Shown in pieces: positions 4,177 through 39,505 of a stretch of 64,000 nt of DNA (position 1 is the first letter of the stretch; each line of letters opens with the position of its first letter). Position numbers and translations under genes: made by a program. This stretch comes from Nitrospinota bacterium (GTDB lineage: Bacteria > Nitrospinota_A > UBA7883 > JACRGQ01): contig JACRGQ010000042.1 of assembly GCA_016217735.1 (NCBI GenBank), positions 1 through 64,000 of the forward strand, written 5' to 3'. Below the pieces are notes generated by a model that made no database searches, was not told the DNA's origin, and was given only the letters and a program-made list of their open reading frames with translations.

Positions 4177-5721
4177 ATGAGCGAAGAACCTAAGAAACCC
4201 GGCGACGGGGATATGGAGACCGACCCCACCGCGTCGATGTCCGGCGATCTTGGCCGTCTTCTGGAAGAGCGCGAACGGCTGGACGAGCTTTTACGCAACA
4301 AATACACGAAGAACATAACGGTGATGTTCACCGACATGAAGGGTTCCACCGCCCTCGCGGAAACCGAGGGCAACTTCGCGGCGCGTTTCTTGATCGAACA
4401 GCATAACAAAATCGTCTTCCCGATAATCGAGCAGCAACACGGCCATCTGGTGAAAACAATGGGGGACGGCACACTCTCCTGGTTCGACGCGCCGCAGGAC
4501 GCCGTCCGCTGCGGCATTCAAATCCAAAAAAGCGTCGCCGAGTTTAACAAAGCCAAAAACCCCAAAGTGCCGATCCAGGTGCGCATCGGGATACACATCG
4601 GGCAGGGGCTTGTGGAAAAAAAGGATATTTACGGCGATGTGGTGAATGTGGCTTCCCGCATAGAAACGCAGGGCAACCCCGGCGAAGTGTACCTTTCGGA
4701 GGATACCTACAACGCGCTGGCGGACAAAGACGAGATTTACTGCTCTTTCCAGAAACTTACTTCGCTCAAGGGTAAAAAGGAGCCGTTCAGGATTTTTAAG
4801 GCGTTCTGGATTCCGGAAGAGATCGCGGAAGACAAAAAAGCCCCTAAAGCGTTCACTGTGGAAGAGAAGAAAAAAGCGGCGTCCACCAGTTCCATACTCA
4901 CCCAGAGCCAGATGTTCAAATTCCAAAAAAGCTCGAAAGAGGTGGCTGCGGAAACCGGCGCCATCGGACCGAGCATCGTGATCGAAGAGGCCGACCGCGG
5001 CAAACGGATCGTTCACCTCAACCAGCCCGAAACGGTTATTGGCCGCGCGCCGGACAGCGATGTGGTGCTGGACGAAAGCTATATTTCCCGCCACCATGCC
5101 AAAATAACGCTGGAAAACGGAAAGTATTTTATCGAAGACCTCGGCAGCCGCATCGGCACCACCATCAACGGCGGGCAAGTGACGAAAAAGGAACTGGCCT
5201 TCGGCGATGAAATCTCGCTGGGGGAAATCCGCATCACCTTTGTGGCGCCCACCGGCGGCCATAAGGGAGCGGTTTCGCCGGACGGAGACGAGGCCGCCGC
5301 AACGATGGTCATGGGAGCGATGACAAAAAAATTCAAGCTCGTGGCCCTCGGGCCGGACAAGGAGTTCCATGAATTCCAGGTTTCCGGCGAAGAAAAGGTT
5401 ATCGGCCGCCACGAAGAGGCCCAGATACGCCTGAGCGACAACCTCGTAAGCCGCCGCCACGCCAAGATATGGGAGGAGAACGGCCAGGTATTCATCGAGG
5501 ATATGGGATCCAACAACGGCACGCTGGTGGACGGCCAAATCATTCCGAAAGCGGAACCGGTCATTCTGCACGAAAAAACGCTGGTCACCATCTGCTCGTA
5601 CCGGCTTGTGCTGCTGAATGTTCTCGACAAGCCGGTTCCGGAAATGTTCACCTCCACCTCTCCCACCGCCTCCCTGGTCAGCAAAATGAAGGGCCTGTGG
5701 GACAGCAAAGGCTCGAAGTAA
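4177..5721 (+). CDS. Class III adenylate cyclase with two C-terminal FHA domains
   Basis: 514 residues. A class III cyclase catalytic domain spans about 44-215: metal-binding aspartates in FTDMKGST (Asp53) and MGDG (Asp97), substrate-selecting Lys93 and Asp150 as in ATP-using enzymes, and transition-state residues Asn157 and Arg161 in VNVASR. This predicts cAMP synthesis. After a charged linker come two forkhead-associated domains, about 285-360 (IGRAPDSD, SRHHAKI) and about 395-475 (IGRHEEAQ, SRRHAKI, GSNNGT). FHA domains bind phosphothreonine peptides, so activity may respond to Ser/Thr phosphorylation, but no kinase gene is in the window. There is no signal peptide or membrane segment. The 3' end overlaps the next gene by 25 bases. 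Confidence 0.92.
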   Translation: MSEEPKKPGDGDMETDPTASMSGDLGRLLEERERLDELLRNKYTKNITVMFTDMKGSTALAETEGNFAARFLIEQHNKIVFPIIEQQHGHLVKTMGDGTLSWFDAPQDAVRCGIQIQKSVAEFNKAKNPKVPIQVRIGIHIGQGLVEKKDIYGDVVNVASRIETQGNPGEVYLSEDTYNALADKDEIYCSFQKLTSLKGKKEPFRIFKAFWIPEEIAEDKKAPKAFTVEEKKKAASTSSILTQSQMFKFQKSSKEVAAETGAIGPSIVIEEADRGKRIVHLNQPETVIGRAPDSDVVLDESYISRHHAKITLENGKYFIEDLGSRIGTTINGGQVTKKELAFGDEISLGEIRITFVAPTGGHKGAVSPDGDEAAATMVMGAMTKKFKLVALGPDKEFHEFQVSGEEKVIGRHEEAQIRLSDNLVSRRHAKIWEENGQVFIEDMGSNNGTLVDGQIIPKAEPVILHEKTLVTICSYRLVLLNVLDKPVPEMFTSTSPTASLVSKMKGLWDSKGSK

Positions 5722-33957: not shown

Positions 33958-34977
33958 TCAGGCGAGGTCGGCGGGGGTGATCGGGTCTTGTTCGTTCACG
34001 TCGCGCGCGAGTTTTTTGCCGATCACGCCGTCCCATTCAGCCACGGAAATCCCGCGCACGGGGCGCAGCGCTATCAGCATATCGGGGGTTATGGTTTCTC
34101 CCGCGCGCAGGGCGCGGCCGGCGAAAAGGCCGCGGCGGAAGTTGGCGCGGTTTTCGGCTTCGTTTTTGGAAAGGACTTTCTCGCCGTTCCCCTGCATCGC
34201 GCGGAGGGAACGGCAGTAGAGCGCGAGTTCTTCCAGTTCGTCCGGTTCGATGGAGATGGCGTGATCCGAAAAGGGGAAAATCTTCGCCATTTTCCGGTCC
34301 ATCGTGAAATGCCGCTCGATCACCGCGGCTCCCATCGCCGCCGCCGCGAACGAGGCGTGCAGCCCTTCGCTGTGGTCGCTCAATCCCACCGGCGCGTCAA
34401 AACGCTCCGCCAGCGTCCGCATGACGTTGAGGTTCATCTGCCTGATGTTCGTCGGATAGTCCGACACACAGTGCAGCAGTATCAGCTGTTCGTTTCCTTC
34501 GCCGCGGACGGCCCGCACCGCCGCGTCCACCTCTTCCATGTCGGCCATCCCGGTGGCGAGTATCACCGGCTTTCCTTTTTTCGCGACGTGCCGCAGCAAC
34601 GGCAGGTTGTTGCAGTCCATCGACGCGATTTTGAAGGCGGGCGCCCCCATCTGGTCGAGGAAATCGGCTGTGGCGGTGTCGAACGCGGCGCTGAAAAGCC
34701 TTGCGCCGGTTTTTTGCGCGAAGGCGAAGAGTTCTTCATGTTGCTCGAAACTGAACGAAAGGCGGCGGATGTTGTCGTGGTAGGGGAGGTCGGATTTCAT
34801 GAAGTTTTCGGGCTGGAACGACTGGAGCTTCACCAGCGCGGCTCCGGCGCGGCGGGCCGAATCGATCATCCGCTTGGCGTGTTCCAGGTCGCCGTTGTGG
34901 TTTATGCCGATCTCGGCGATCACCAGCGGCGGCGCGTCCCCGCCGGCGGGAAGTCCCCCGATACTAATTGGGCGCAT
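33958..34977 (-). CDS. neuB: N-acetylneuraminate synthase family protein (NeuB/PseI-like)
   Basis: 339 residues. A TIM barrel with [12 protein letters not shown] (18-29), [25 protein letters not shown] and GLSDHS is followed by a C-terminal SAF (antifreeze-like) domain from about 275 ([17 protein letters not shown]). These enzymes condense PEP with an amino sugar to make sialic, legionaminic or pseudaminic acid. Which acid is made cannot be told from sequence alone, and other steps of the pathway are not in the window. Such acids decorate flagellin or LPS. Confidence 0.9.
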
Positions 34978-35077
34978 GGAGGGATTATACCACCGCTTTC
35001 ACGGGAATGGGGAAAATTGCCGTCGCCGGCCTCAACACGCGGTTCCGCCATCCGCCCTCCAGGCGTATAATGATGTC

Positions 35078-35590
35078 ATGAAACGGCGGTATCCCGGAAT
35101 TATATCCGTATTGATTGGAGTAACGGCGATTATGGCTGACGCGGCGGATTATAAGGCTCCATCGAAAGAGCGGTTACGCTCCATCCTCACGGCGGAGCAG
35201 TACCATGTAACGCAGGAGAACGGCACCGAGCGCCCCTTCGCCAACGCCTACTGGGATAACAAAGGGGATGGCATATATGTGGACATCGTCTCCGGCGAGC
35301 CGCTCTTCAGCAGCCGCGACAAGTACGATTCCGGCACCGGTTGGCCCAGCTTTTCCCGGCCGCTGGAAAAAGAAAACATCGTCGAACGGCTCGATAAGGG
35401 CATTTTTGGCGCCCGCACGGAGATACGCAGCAAGCATGGCAACAGCCACCTCGGCCATGTATTTGAAGACGGCCCGTCACCGACCGGCCAGCGCTACTGC
35501 ATGAACTCCGCCGCGCTCCGCTTCATCCCGGCGGCCAACATGGAAAAGGAAGGGTACGGAGCGTACCTGAAACTCTTTGGGCGTAAGTGA
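35078..35590 (+). CDS. msrB: Peptide-methionine (R)-S-oxide reductase MsrB, exported
   Basis: 170 residues. An N-terminal hydrophobic signal (about 7-23) precedes the MsrB domain: [28 protein letters not shown] and the catalytic Cys in RYCMNSAAL. The four zinc-binding cysteines found in many MsrB proteins are absent, so it is the zinc-free form. It probably repairs oxidised methionine in the periplasm together with the msrA product encoded five bases downstream. Confidence 0.93.
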
Positions 35591-35595
35591 CGGCA

Positions 35596-36231
35596 ATGAA
35601 AGTAACGGCTGTTTTCGCCGCGTGCCTTGTGCTGGTTTTTGCCGGCGCGGGTTTTGCGGCGGGTAAAGGAGAACCTCGCATGGAGCAGGCAACTTTTGCG
35701 GGGGGCTGTTTCTGGTGCATGGAGCCGCCATTCGAGAAAACGGCGGGCGTGACGGAAGTTATCAGCGGATACACCGGCGGGCACAAGGCGAATCCCACCT
35801 ATGAAGAGGTTTCATCCGGCACGACCGGCCACCTTGAAGCGGTGCGGGTGACATACGACCCCGCGAAGGTGACGTATGAAGCGCTGCTGGAAATCTTTTG
35901 GCGCAACATCGATCCGACCAATCCCATCGGCCAGTTCGCCGACCACGGAGAGCAATACAAGCCGGCCATTTTCCACCACAACGACGCGCAAAGGCGCCTT
36001 GCCGAGGAATCCAAAAAGCGGTTGCAGGCATCGGGCCGCTTCAAAAAGCCGATAGTGGTGGAGATACGGAAGGCGGCGGAGTTCTACCCCGCCGAAGAGT
36101 ATCACCAGGATTTTTACAAGAAAAGCGCCGAGCGCTACAAGCGGTACCGCATCGGCTCCGGCCGTGAGCGTTTCCTCAACGAAACGTGGAGCGGCGAAGA
36201 GGTTCCGAACGCCTCCCCCGGCAAGAAGTAA
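35596..36231 (+). CDS. msrA: Peptide-methionine (S)-S-oxide reductase MsrA, exported
   Basis: 211 residues. The signal peptide (about 1-22) precedes the catalytic GGCFWCMEPPFE motif, then SGYTGGHKANPTYEEV and HQDFYKKS. Both Msr proteins carry export signals, indicating a periplasmic repair pair. The start is the ATG at 35596; a GTG at 35587 overlapping the msrB stop is an alternative. Confidence 0.95.
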   Translation: MKVTAVFAACLVLVFAGAGFAAGKGEPRMEQATFAGGCFWCMEPPFEKTAGVTEVISGYTGGHKANPTYEEVSSGTTGHLEAVRVTYDPAKVTYEALLEIFWRNIDPTNPIGQFADHGEQYKPAIFHHNDAQRRLAEESKKRLQASGRFKKPIVVEIRKAAEFYPAEEYHQDFYKKSAERYKRYRIGSGRERFLNETWSGEEVPNASPGKK

Positions 36232-36271: not shown

Positions 36272-36300
36272 TTGCGATAACCGGGCAATTTACCTATAGT
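36272..36300 (+). promoter_or_regulatory. Predicted sigma-70 promoter of the cNMP-ferredoxin operon
   Basis: TTGCGA (36272-36277), 17-base spacer, TATAGT (36295-36300). It would leave a leader of about 100 bases before the GTG at 36408. Confidence 0.5.
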
Positions 36301-36407
36301 TTAACGATGGATGCGTTGGTGGAAAAAGTCACGCGGACAACCGCCGCGGCAATACGCCCCGGAGCAATCGTTTTTTTCCGCCGCCGCCTTGCGCGCGGAC
36401 GATCGGC

Positions 36408-37832
36408 GTGGCCATGTCCCGCGATCTGATACCCCGCATCGCCGGAATACCCCTGTTTGACGGGCTTGACCCCGATCAGGTGTTTGCCGCCCTCCATGAA
36501 GTCAAAATCGTGGATTACAAGGCCGGCGGTTTTATTTGCCGCCAGGGTGAATACGAGGAAGCGTGCAGCATCATCCTTGAAGGCTCCGCCTCGGTTCTTC
36601 TTCCCGATATGGGCGCGGGGGCGCCGAAACGGATTCCCGTCAACGCCGGCGAAATCTTCGGGGAGATTGCCGCCATGTCGGGCACGCCGCGCACGGCGGA
36701 CGTTGTGGCCGAGACCGACGTGAAGCTGCTGCGCATTTCGCGCGATGACATTTTCAGCGTCATCGACAAATTCCAGGCGGTCAAGGAACGGTTGGATGCC
36801 ATATACCTCCAGCGCGCGCTCAGCACCCATCTTTCCAAAGTGCCGATTTTCGCCCCCCTCCCGGAAGAAATGATAGGGAAAATCCGCGGCGCGGCCACGC
36901 TGCAAACGTTCCGGCAGAACGAGGTTATTTTCAGCGAGGGGGACGAGGTGGACGCCTTCTACCTGATCCGGTACGGCTTCGTCAAAGTATCGCGGCGCGA
37001 CGCCAGGATGGGGGAGCGGGTGCTTGCCTACCTGAATGAAGGCAGCTACTTCGGCGAGATGGCGCTGATGGAAAAGGGAAAAAGAACCGCCACCATATCG
37101 GCCCTTAACCGCGCCGAAGTGATCAAGATAGCCAAGGCCGATTTCGACCATATCCTCGAAATGAACGAGCCGGTGCGGGCGGCTTTCGAGATGGTGATAC
37201 GGAAGCGGCGCGAGCGCAACGAGCAGATCGGCGCCAGCGGCGTCATGGCCCGCAAGCTTTCCGCCATGACCGAAGGGGGGTTGATCCAGTCCAAGGCGCT
37301 CCTCCTTATGGACCTCACCAAATGCGTTCAGTGCGATAGCTGCGTGAAGGCGTGCGCCGCGCTGCACGGGGGGGATTCCCGCCTGATACGCAAAGGGATG
37401 AAGCTCAACGATTATATCCTGCTTCCCACGTCGTGCCGGAATTGCGCGGACCCGGTCTGCATGTCGAGTTGCCCCACCGGCGCCATCAAGAGAAACCTGC
37501 AGGGGGAGATTTACCACGAGGATTATTGCATCGGCTGCGGCGGCTGCGCGCGGCTCTGCCCGCACGGGAACATTGCCGTGGTGATCCGGCAGGACGGGAA
37601 TGCGCGGCGAAGCCCGTGGACCCATCTTCTCGGCCCGCTGGGGCGGTTTAAGCGTGCCGCGCCGGCCGGGGAGGCCGGCCCGGACGGCGTGCCGCGCGTA
37701 AAGAGGCAAGCGGTGAAATGCGATCTCTGCAAGGATTATGAATTCATGGGGTGCGTGTATAACTGTCCCACCGGCGCGGCGCGCCATGTGAATCCGACCG
37801 AATATTTCCTCGATTTCAAGGCGATCACATGA
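36408..37832 (+). CDS. Two cyclic-nucleotide-binding domains fused to a four-cluster ferredoxin
   Basis: 474 residues. Two cNMP-binding domains (about 10-125 and 140-255; phosphate-cassette-like GEIFGEIAAMSG and GSYFGEMALMEKG) are followed by a ferredoxin region (about 300-460). It has sixteen cysteines in four clusters: CVQCDSCVKAC, CRNCADPVCMSSCP, CIGCGGCARLCP and CDLC-x7-CVYNCP, the layout of NrfC/DmsB-type electron-transfer subunits. There is no DNA-binding domain, so it is not a CRP-type regulator. Ligand binding may gate electron flow. The start is GTG 36408 or ATG 36414. A membrane protein and a nine-heme cytochrome gene follow in the same operon. Confidence 0.88.
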   Translation: MAMSRDLIPRIAGIPLFDGLDPDQVFAALHEVKIVDYKAGGFICRQGEYEEACSIILEGSASVLLPDMGAGAPKRIPVNAGEIFGEIAAMSGTPRTADVVAETDVKLLRISRDDIFSVIDKFQAVKERLDAIYLQRALSTHLSKVPIFAPLPEEMIGKIRGAATLQTFRQNEVIFSEGDEVDAFYLIRYGFVKVSRRDARMGERVLAYLNEGSYFGEMALMEKGKRTATISALNRAEVIKIAKADFDHILEMNEPVRAAFEMVIRKRRERNEQIGASGVMARKLSAMTEGGLIQSKALLLMDLTKCVQCDSCVKACAALHGGDSRLIRKGMKLNDYILLPTSCRNCADPVCMSSCPTGAIKRNLQGEIYHEDYCIGCGGCARLCPHGNIAVVIRQDGNARRSPWTHLLGPLGRFKRAAPAGEAGPDGVPRVKRQAVKCDLCKDYEFMGCVYNCPTGAARHVNPTEYFLDFKAIT

Positions 37833-37859
37833 GGCCGGCGGTGATTGCGGGAGGGTGTT

Positions 37860-38696
37860 ATGGAAACTGAACTCCTAAAGCATAAGCTCGATCTTCAGAT
37901 CATCCGGGGGCGGTGGCCCCTTGTCTTCACGGCGGCCGCCGCGCTTTTGCTGGCGTGGTACTGGATATATGCCGGCCGCGCGTTGCCGCGGGGCGGCACG
38001 TTCTCCGGCATGGCGTTCGGCATTTTGGCGTTTCTCACCATTGTGTTTTTGATGGCGTACAAGGTGCGCAAGCACATTTACCATGTCCGCCTTGGTCCCA
38101 CGAGTTCCTGGCTCACGGCCCATGTCTATCTGGGGGTGGTCGCCGGGGTATTGGTGTTCATGCATATGGGGTTCCACCTGTCCGGCGGCTTCGGCGGCGT
38201 CATGTTCGCCCTCTTCGCGTTCACCGTGGCGGGCGGCGCGGCCGGTTCCCTTATTTTCAAGCTCACGCCGATCTCCCTTATGAAGGACGGCAGGGAGATG
38301 ATGACGCGGGACATGCTGCGGGAGAAAATCGCCAAATGCCTTCACGATGCCGATAGCGATTTGCAATCGGCGTCGGAGCAGTTTAAAAAACTGTACCGGG
38401 AAGAGATACGGCCGTTCCTCGAATTGCGGCGGATACCCTGGAGCTACCTCTTGAAGGAGGAGCGAACGCTGATCCGGCAGCGGCGGCGCGCGCTGGAATC
38501 GCTGATGCCCCGGGTTTCCAACGATGAAAAGTACCATCTCAGGCTGTTGCAGCTTGTGGTGGTGGAAAAAGAGCGCTTCACCATGCGCCTGGTAAAGCTT
38601 GAGCTTTTCGATTTCTGGCTCTGGTTCCATCTGCCGGTGTCGTTCGTTGTTTTCGTGATGATCCTGTTTCATGTATTTATGGTGTCGTACTACTGA
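37860..38696 (+). CDS. Membrane protein with cytochrome b-like histidines
   Basis: 278 residues. Five predicted helices (about 22-40, 48-66, 85-107, 113-135 and 247-275) enclose a charged, helical cytoplasmic-type loop of about 110 residues. Histidines lie in AHVYLG and FMHMGFH of helix 3 (14 apart) and in FHLPV and LFHVF of the last helix (12 apart), spacings compatible with b-type heme ligation. It would link the cytoplasmic ferredoxin to the periplasmic cytochrome. GGGAGGG precedes the ATG at 37860. The heme assignment is inference; no named family was recognised. Confidence 0.7.
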   Translation: METELLKHKLDLQIIRGRWPLVFTAAAALLLAWYWIYAGRALPRGGTFSGMAFGILAFLTIVFLMAYKVRKHIYHVRLGPTSSWLTAHVYLGVVAGVLVFMHMGFHLSGGFGGVMFALFAFTVAGGAAGSLIFKLTPISLMKDGREMMTRDMLREKIAKCLHDADSDLQSASEQFKKLYREEIRPFLELRRIPWSYLLKEERTLIRQRRRALESLMPRVSNDEKYHLRLLQLVVVEKERFTMRLVKLELFDFWLWFHLPVSFVVFVMILFHVFMVSYY

Positions 38697-39505
38697 TGGG
38701 CAACAACACTATCCGGTTTGTCGCGTCCGTGTTCCTGGCGCTGCTGACGTTGGCGGGGCTGGTGTTGGTGAAAAGCGGCGACGTCCGCCGGTTTATGGGC
38801 GGCGGCCTCTCGCTCAAGCACCAGGCGCTGGCCACCGATTGTACGGTGTGCCACACGCCGTGGCGCAACGTGAGCGATGATAAATGCAAGAAGTGCCATG
38901 ACCGGGCGGGATCGCACCTTGCGCCGTCGGCGGAGGAGGATAAACGGAAGGCCGTGGAAGGGGTGGTCTGCATGGATTGCCATGTCGAGCACAAAGGGCC
39001 GGACATCCGCGTGTCCTTCCCCGGCTCGGTGATGTGCGGTTCTTGCCACGATCATGCCGTCCACCCGGAAATAAAAAAGCGGCCCATCATGAAGAAGCCG
39101 GAGCCGAACAGGGCCTTTCCCCACAGCATCCACAAGGACCGGGCTCCCTCGATGAAGATGGAAAAATGCGGCGATTGCCACATCGATACGGACGGGAAGG
39201 GGACGCTTGGGTACAATGCGGCGCAGCTTAACGCCGGCAACTGCCGCCCGTGCCACTACGGAAACGCCGAGCTGGGCGAGAACGCCGTGCCGGTTCATTA
39301 CGTCAACAAAGCGGTTTTCAAGCACGCCCGGCATGGCGGTTTCGATTGCCTCCGGTGCCACAAGGATATTTTGAATATTCCCGAGTTGAGCGAAGAGAAC
39401 CTCCCCTCGGTGGCGAAGTGCATGGAGTGCCACAACGCGCGGACGGGAACCACCTGCGTCAAGTGCCACGGTTTCCATCTCGTGGCGGTGAAGAAGAAGG
39501 GATAA
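38696..39505 (+). CDS. Nine-heme cytochrome c
   Basis: 269 residues with nine CxxCH heme-binding motifs: CTVCH, CKKCH, CMDCH, CGSCH, CGDCH, CRPCH, CLRCH, CMECH and CVKCH. An N-terminal hydrophobic segment (about 7-24) acts as uncleaved anchor or signal, so the hemes face the periplasm. Its ATG overlaps the stop of the membrane-protein gene by one base, which indicates a single functional unit. Its electron partner is unknown. Confidence 0.9.
   Translation: MGNNTIRFVASVFLALLTLAGLVLVKSGDVRRFMGGGLSLKHQALATDCTVCHTPWRNVSDDKCKKCHDRAGSHLAPSAEEDKRKAVEGVVCMDCHVEHKGPDIRVSFPGSVMCGSCHDHAVHPEIKKRPIMKKPEPNRAFPHSIHKDRAPSMKMEKCGDCHIDTDGKGTLGYNAAQLNAGNCRPCHYGNAELGENAVPVHYVNKAVFKHARHGGFDCLRCHKDILNIPELSEENLPSVAKCMECHNARTGTTCVKCHGFHLVAVKKKG

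Follow-up and report, generated by a model that had tools for sequence, protein, structure and literature searches.

A widespread three-gene module joining tandem cyclic-nucleotide-binding domains to a putative transmembrane electron conduit

Gene layout of the locus

We analysed a stretch of 64,000 nucleotides from a Nitrospinota bacterium (GenBank assembly GCA_016217735.1, contig JACRGQ010000042.1, forward-strand positions 1 to 64,000), which is called "the window" below. The contig (C42) is part of a genome of 2.53 Mb. At 36414-39505 the window carries three packed plus-strand genes, here named FD, MEM and CYT. The original prediction, made from the sequence alone, had described an FD with two cyclic nucleoside monophosphate (cNMP)-binding domains and a 16-Cys ferredoxin, a five-helix MEM and a nine-heme CYT, tightly packed, and it had proposed that a ligand such as cAMP gates electron transfer between cytoplasm and periplasm. 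The contents of the trio were confirmed and are as follows.

36414-37832, plus strand: FD, a soluble protein of 472 aa with tandem cNMP-binding domains and a 16-Cys polyferredoxin
36648-36704, plus strand: phosphate-binding cassette 1 of FD, GEIFGEIAAMSGTPRTADV, with Glu84 and Arg93
37041-37097, plus strand: phosphate-binding cassette 2 of FD, GSYFGEMALMEKGKRTATI, with Glu215 and Arg224
37311-37778, plus strand: 16-Cys ferredoxin domain of FD, four [4Fe-4S] motifs, HycB/DmsB-like
37860-38696, plus strand: MEM, 278 aa, a putative diheme b cytochrome with five transmembrane (TM) helices and a long cytoplasmic loop (135-250)
38696-39505, plus strand: CYT, 269 aa, a membrane-anchored nine-heme cytochrome c with nine CXXCH motifs and an N-terminal anchor

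FD starts with the ATG at 36414 (a GTG at 36408 is also possible) and its stop codon ends at 37832. It is followed after a gap of 27 bp by the ATG of MEM at 37860, and the stop codon of MEM overlaps the start codon of CYT (TGATG).

Co-inheritance and distribution of the three genes

FD was the only search key in even phylum samples, and the neighbouring MEM and CYT genes are therefore independent evidence. We scored 145 non-identical FD loci, 136 of which extended at least 2.5 kb downstream and were used for neighbour counts. MEM was counted when it was fused to FD or started <300 bp away on the same strand, and CYT when a c-type cytochrome with at least five CXXCH motifs was encoded within 1.5 kb on the same strand. 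MEM was found at 125 of the 136 loci, CYT at 126 and both at 124; in 19 loci FD and MEM are one polypeptide. All three genes are thus adjacent and on one strand at 124 loci, which rules out a local coincidence and leaves the predicted operon standing as a unit.

The contig scan revealed FD in Acidobacteriota, Alpha-, Gamma- and Deltaproteobacteria, Nitrospirae and Kofleriaceae. In the even samples it was present in 34 of 297 Acidobacteriota and 39 of 289 Alphaproteobacteria. The Gammaproteobacteria sample yielded FD in 22 of 369 genomes, and 17 of these were kept (E < 1e-60 plus a ferredoxin half). The FD tree has four groups, i.e. flavin-fused, NqrF-linked/Acidobacterial, Nitrospinota, and FD-MEM-fused; the Nitrospinota proteins fall into one group that includes just one outsider (support 0.84). 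These comparisons indicate that the three-gene module is real and widely conserved, and that it is ancient and has been kept together in several phyla.

The gene order in the loci examined closely is FD-MEM-CYT, and in a second clade it is CYT-FD-MEM with a ten-heme CYT. Ten is also the commonest haem count of CYT (93 loci). The window CYT matches the multiheme c (c7/c3-like) families PF14522 and PF02085 (42.6 bits versus 24.8 and 42.9 versus 22.9, respectively). An FHA domain, which may serve as a second input that recognises phospho-threonine, is found on CYT in 78 of the 124 trios.

In two Nitrospinota genomes (loci L115 and L116) the order CYT-FD-MEM occurs beside genes that by eye resemble microcompartment genes, i.e. 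a EutN-like shell protein, an aldehyde dehydrogenase and a PduS/RnfC-like protein. On the contig of L115 (G019:C15) the cluster is duplicated in inverted orientation, which is probably an artefact of assembly.

The cNMP-binding domains and the ferredoxin of FD

The family PF00027 matches FD with 133.4 bits (cut-off 27.5; whole-protein E 2.9e-39) in two stretches, and the canonical Gly-Glu...Arg-x-Ala phosphate-binding cassette is intact at both sites of the window protein. Cassette 1 is highly conserved among the 145 FDs (Gly83 in 142, Glu84 in 140, Arg93 in 130), and the values for cassette 2 are 105 for Glu215 and 94 for Arg224. Nitrospinota loci retain the complete Glu...Arg cassette in 13 of 13 cases for domain 1 and in 12 of 13 for domain 2, so that the predicted ligand pockets withstood a check for loss of their binding residues. 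Flavin-fused FDs have an intact cassette 1 in 58 of 61 cases and an intact cassette 2 in 57 of 61. The FD-MEM fusions retain cassette 1 in 16 of 19 cases and cassette 2 in none. Site 1 has the appearance of a functional nucleotide pocket that selection has long maintained, and the comparison indicates that site 2 is dispensable in some clades.

The tandem cyclic-nucleotide-binding (CNB) domains of FD are closest to the regulatory domains of PKA and PKG, both in a Foldseek search with the structural model (E down to 3e-20) and in profile matches (E 1e-30 to 1e-50). In both cassettes the Arg is followed by Thr, which we take to be compatible with either cAMP or cGMP.

The ferredoxin half falls in the DmsB/HycB 16-Cys family (profile E 1e-27 to 1e-30), and matches to DsrO/HmcB were below the cut-off, as for a generic ferredoxin. 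Each of the 16 cysteines is invariant in 143 to 145 of the 145 FDs, the exceptions being 0 to 2 gapped rows. The window FD lacks the N-terminal pyridine nucleotide-disulphide oxidoreductase domain that relatives of the flavin-fused clade have.

A further cNMP-binding fusion was seen in Steroidobacteraceae-like genomes, where an aquaporin (MIP) with a C-terminal cNMP-binding domain is encoded about 3.7 kb upstream of FD (L047:164-1267).

The membrane subunit and the proposed conduit

An AlphaFold2 model (mean pLDDT 89) and the hydropathy profile predict five TM helices for MEM. His88, His102, His257 and His271 are invariant across 130 MEMs (two rows are gapped at the C-terminus), and so are G129 and P137. 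The histidines form the pairs H88/H102 in TM3 and H257/H271 in TM5, i.e. two pairs of invariant residues about 14 apart in two TM helices, as in bis-His diheme b cytochromes. This pattern fits a cytochrome that would bind two b haems. The distribution of positive charges places the N-terminus, the TM2-TM3 loop and the 135-250 loop on the cytoplasmic side; H88 and H257 are therefore expected near the cytoplasm, and H102 and H271 near the periplasm.

The window MEM had no Pfam match above the gathering score, including cytochrome b561 (PF01292) and ferric reductase (PF01794), and neither Pfam nor NCBIfam gave a match to a NrfD, NarI-like or HdrD-like subunit. Among 33 MEM relatives, 15 score weakly to PF01292 (best E 8.7e-7), and relatives also score weakly to DUF4405.

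Together, co-inheritance and the invariant residues give good support to the transmembrane electron conduit of the original prediction, which we regard as highly probable. Electrons need not run straight through it. In a quinone-linked respiratory module, MEM would oxidise or reduce quinone and pass electrons to FD and/or CYT. Four-helix b-type cytochromes often have quinone sites, the weak matches of MEM relatives to b561 and DUF4405 point in the same direction, and the partners of 16-Cys ferredoxins of the DmsB/HycB kind often face quinone. However, a direct path is possible, since the predicted haem ligands lie near both membrane faces and a multiheme c gene accompanies the other two almost without exception. 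We consider the quinone module rather unlikely.

MEM homologues were found in 18 of the 24 Nitrospinota genomes. The weak ones were rejected as members of the trio; they are part of a different pair without cNMP domains. This second conserved Nitrospinota pair consists of a MEM-like four-His cytochrome b and a Fer4/Pyr_redox protein (L114:10399-12652 on G000:C41, L018, L020, L028), and is possibly a constitutive cousin of the complex.

The likely cytoplasmic electron partner and direction of flow

A likely cytoplasmic redox partner, absent from the original prediction, emerged from the relatives. An N-terminal FAD/NAD(P) oxidoreductase domain (Pyr_redox) precedes the cNMP domains in 74 of the 145 FDs. 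The same kind of domain forms the C-terminus of CYT in about ten loci (L039, L048, L059, L063, L197, L199, L201-L203, L246), and in L063 it lies behind a ferredoxin. In addition, 13 flavin-less loci contain an NqrF-like gene (PF00175, PF00970, Fer2) within the cluster. The three different ways of attaching an NAD(P)H flavoprotein suggest that NAD(P)H is the cytoplasmic partner, and it is likely that electrons move between NAD(P)H or ferredoxin and the periplasmic haems.

Outward flow is the direction that we consider the more probable one. Inward flow would mean that periplasmic donors reduce CYT and that the complex feeds ferredoxin or NAD(P)+ by reverse electron transport. There are chemolithotrophs among the Nitrospinota and the chain is reversible in principle, but the uphill step from typical c haems to NAD(P)+ would need an energy-coupling subunit, and none was recognised. 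Inward flow therefore appears improbable.

Alphaproteobacterial-type clusters (L230-L240, L073-L075) encode additional tetraheme and pentaheme c554-like cytochromes as well as a protein of about 500 aa without a Pfam match that by eye resembles a porin; these additions hint at a further route towards the outer membrane.

Cyclases and the putative ligand

The original prediction had drawn attention to a cAMP-type cyclase about 32 kb from the trio. The product of the gene at 4177-5721 is indeed a cyclase of class III (PF00211); it has two FHA domains and the Lys...Asp pair of the adenylyl type. It is one of eight class III cyclases in the genome, and chance alone would place one no more than about 33 kb from the trio, in either direction, with a probability of about 0.19. 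The distance therefore carries no information, and the view that this cyclase implies cAMP control was rejected.

The Gammaproteobacteria are more informative. Cyclases are encoded within about 8 kb of FD at 4 of the 17 sampled loci, with about 2-3% expected for each (binomial p 3e-4 to 1.4e-3, relatedness ignored). A class III cyclase is present in 16 of the 17 FD-bearing genomes versus 220 of 352 without FD (Fisher p 0.008). On the same strand and <4 kb from FD, cyclases occur at L050, L053, L056, L057, L154 and L157; that of L050 is of the CHASE2 type (Pfam), and the other five cluster with it. Cyclases also flank the MEM-less FDs L065 and L156. The gammaproteobacterial cyclases less than about 4 kb from FD are a better argument for a cNMP than the window cyclase. 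The cyclase data support, but do not prove, a cNMP as the ligand of FD. Judged from the sequences, control by cAMP or cGMP is plausible, and control of the complex by some cNMP seems somewhat more probable than its absence.

Proposed mechanism and its weighing

Taking the parts, their invariant residues and their co-inheritance as established by comparative sequence analysis, we infer the following arrangement. The FD, MEM and CYT products would form one inner-membrane complex, with FD and its four [4Fe-4S] clusters in the cytoplasm. MEM would span the membrane and hold two b haems, one between His88 and His257 on the cytoplasmic side and one between His102 and His271 on the periplasmic side, and the nine c haems would lie in the periplasm on the anchored CYT. 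The electron path would lead from FD via MEM to CYT, most likely outward, with NAD(P)H or reduced ferredoxin as the donor and an acceptor in the periplasm. The NAD(P)H flavoprotein, which in many relatives belongs to the FD or CYT polypeptide or is encoded nearby, would be a separate protein in the window genome. The tandem cNMP domains, which precede the ferredoxin in FD, would bind a 3′,5′-cyclic nucleotide (probably cAMP), and binding would alter the coupling between the flavin/ferredoxin donor and the FD clusters. This reading as a whole, a second-messenger-controlled transmembrane reductase, is the one we favour, by a modest degree of confidence.

Several observations weigh against it. 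The MEM model had no fold match in the PDB at E ≤ 0.001, and the haem placement therefore rests on sequence. FD is present in 15 of the 24 Nitrospinota genomes and missing from 9, and no NAD(P)H flavoprotein was found linked to the Nitrospinota trios. Cyclases are present in 23 of these 24 genomes, whether or not FD is, and in the whole set a cyclase lies near FD at just 13 of 145 loci, partly from one clade, so that cyclase adjacency was rejected as a general rule. Cassette 2 is degenerate in about one third of the FDs, including all 19 FD-MEM fusions; therefore, two-site binding is not essential. Lastly, 13 flavin-fused FDs have no MEM nearby, and FD can therefore act without the membrane part.

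The MEM-less proteins could suggest that FD is an independent regulated oxidoreductase and that the neighbouring cytochromes are loosely associated. These 13 proteins occupy dispersed positions in the tree, apparently as a result of secondary losses, and the idea is hard to reconcile with the 124 complete trios and the 19 FD-MEM fusions, which makes it very improbable. The loss of cassette 2 in whole clades and the small number of adjacent cyclases would agree with the same conduit bearing cNMP domains that are structural or docking modules, or that bind another ligand, without nucleotide sensing; CNB-fold domains for other ligands are well known, e.g. in CooA, CprK and NtcA. Yet 90-97% of the 145 diverse FDs retain the Glu and Arg of cassette 1, the solved structures nearest to the FD domains are those of the cAMP/cGMP-binding domains of PKA and PKG, and a cyclase lies alongside in some relatives. 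We therefore regard non-sensing domains as unlikely.

A broader proposal follows from the controlled reductase. The trio might represent a widespread class of ligand-gated conduits, in which electrons pass from NAD(P)H or ferredoxin through the inner membrane to multiheme cytochromes of the periplasm, and in which this transfer is switched directly by a 3′,5′-cyclic nucleotide, in many lineages perhaps together with phospho-threonine via the FHA domain of CYT. We offer this as a tentative generalisation, towards which we do not quite lean.

Relation to known systems

The closest described architecture is the "Bact_Pyrredox" CNB subfamily, in which tandem CNB domains follow an N-terminal pyridine nucleotide-disulphide oxidoreductase (Kannan et al. 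2007, PMC2246266). It has the architecture of the flavin-fused FDs, which it probably covers, and its cassette consensus, GEMGLISGRRRGATVRA, matches the FD motif. It was listed as an architecture. In the text of that paper we found no mention of ferredoxin, 4Fe-4S or FHA, nor did we find the membrane system of three genes or the flavin-less form seen in Nitrospinota. The full-text literature that was searched, a body that excludes subscription papers and preprints, held no description of the operon, the complex or its function.

The ferredoxin half belongs to the same four-cluster family as the DmsB/HycB subunits, e.g. HycB3/4 of HDCR (7qv7; 7z0s), but it is fused to cNMP domains, and no molybdopterin enzyme or hydrogenase was recognised next to FD in the window. 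The Hmc, Tmc and Dsr complexes of sulphate reducers likewise combine a cytoplasmic Fe-S protein, a membrane cytochrome and a periplasmic multiheme c in one operon. In contrast to these, the trio has no recognised HdrD or NrfD-like subunit, its MEM has no solved relative, and it carries a second-messenger sensor. The PKA and PKG regulatory domains share the tandem CNB fold and the cassette residues with FD, whose output domain is a ferredoxin rather than a kinase or kinase inhibitor. By analogy only, eukaryotic Nox/Duox enzymes also move electrons in a regulated manner from NAD(P)H via FAD and two stacked b haems to the far side of the membrane; the proteins are unrelated, and the trio has a multiheme c acceptor, four Fe-S clusters and cNMP/FHA inputs instead of Ca2+ or Rac. 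We place the trio with the known Fe-S/b/multiheme-c transmembrane redox complexes; the putative gating is what would make it categorically new.

The known targets of second messengers are transcription, channels, kinases and exchange factors. If the favoured reading is true, direct allosteric control of transmembrane electron transfer by cAMP or cGMP would be a new output of cyclic-nucleotide signalling and a new way to control respiration or electron export, i.e. a redox counterpart of the cyclic-nucleotide-gated ion channel. The conserved module also occurs in groups from which members have been cultivated (Alpha- and Gammaproteobacteria, Acidobacteriota), and the idea is therefore testable outside the uncultured Nitrospinota.

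Promoter, leader and neighbouring genes

Two features precede FD.

36272-36300, plus strand: promoter, TTGCGA-17 nt-TATAGT, a consensus match conserved in two congeners
36306-36366, plus strand: remnant of the 5′ end of a minimal nucleotidyltransferase (MNT) gene, in the FD leader between the -10 box and FD

The single promoter of the original prediction is the only consensus match. With 1.4 matches expected by chance in shuffled sequences, a chance match was suspected at first; this was dropped once the upstream alignment with the two congeners showed conservation (TTGCGR...AATTTAyyTATAGTT). The promoter is supported because its boxes stay conserved in an upstream region that has otherwise diverged.

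A repeat match at 36289-36361 was rejected as a regulatory repeat and is instead the remnant of the MNT gene start. The remnant is 82% identical over 67 bp to a longer copy in the same genome (G000:C27:45273-45345), and is missing from the FD leaders of both congeners. The longer copy adjoins a HEPN-like open reading frame (ORF).

Directly upstream of the operon, at 34799-36231, lie genes for MsrB and MsrA, both apparently with signal peptides (periplasmic). MsrB/MsrA genes also occur within about 4 kb of FD in congener G005, where they are transcribed in the direction opposite to FD. In congener G006, visual inspection of the region a few kb ahead of the operon showed Cas9-like and Cas1-like ORFs (L122:734-5074).

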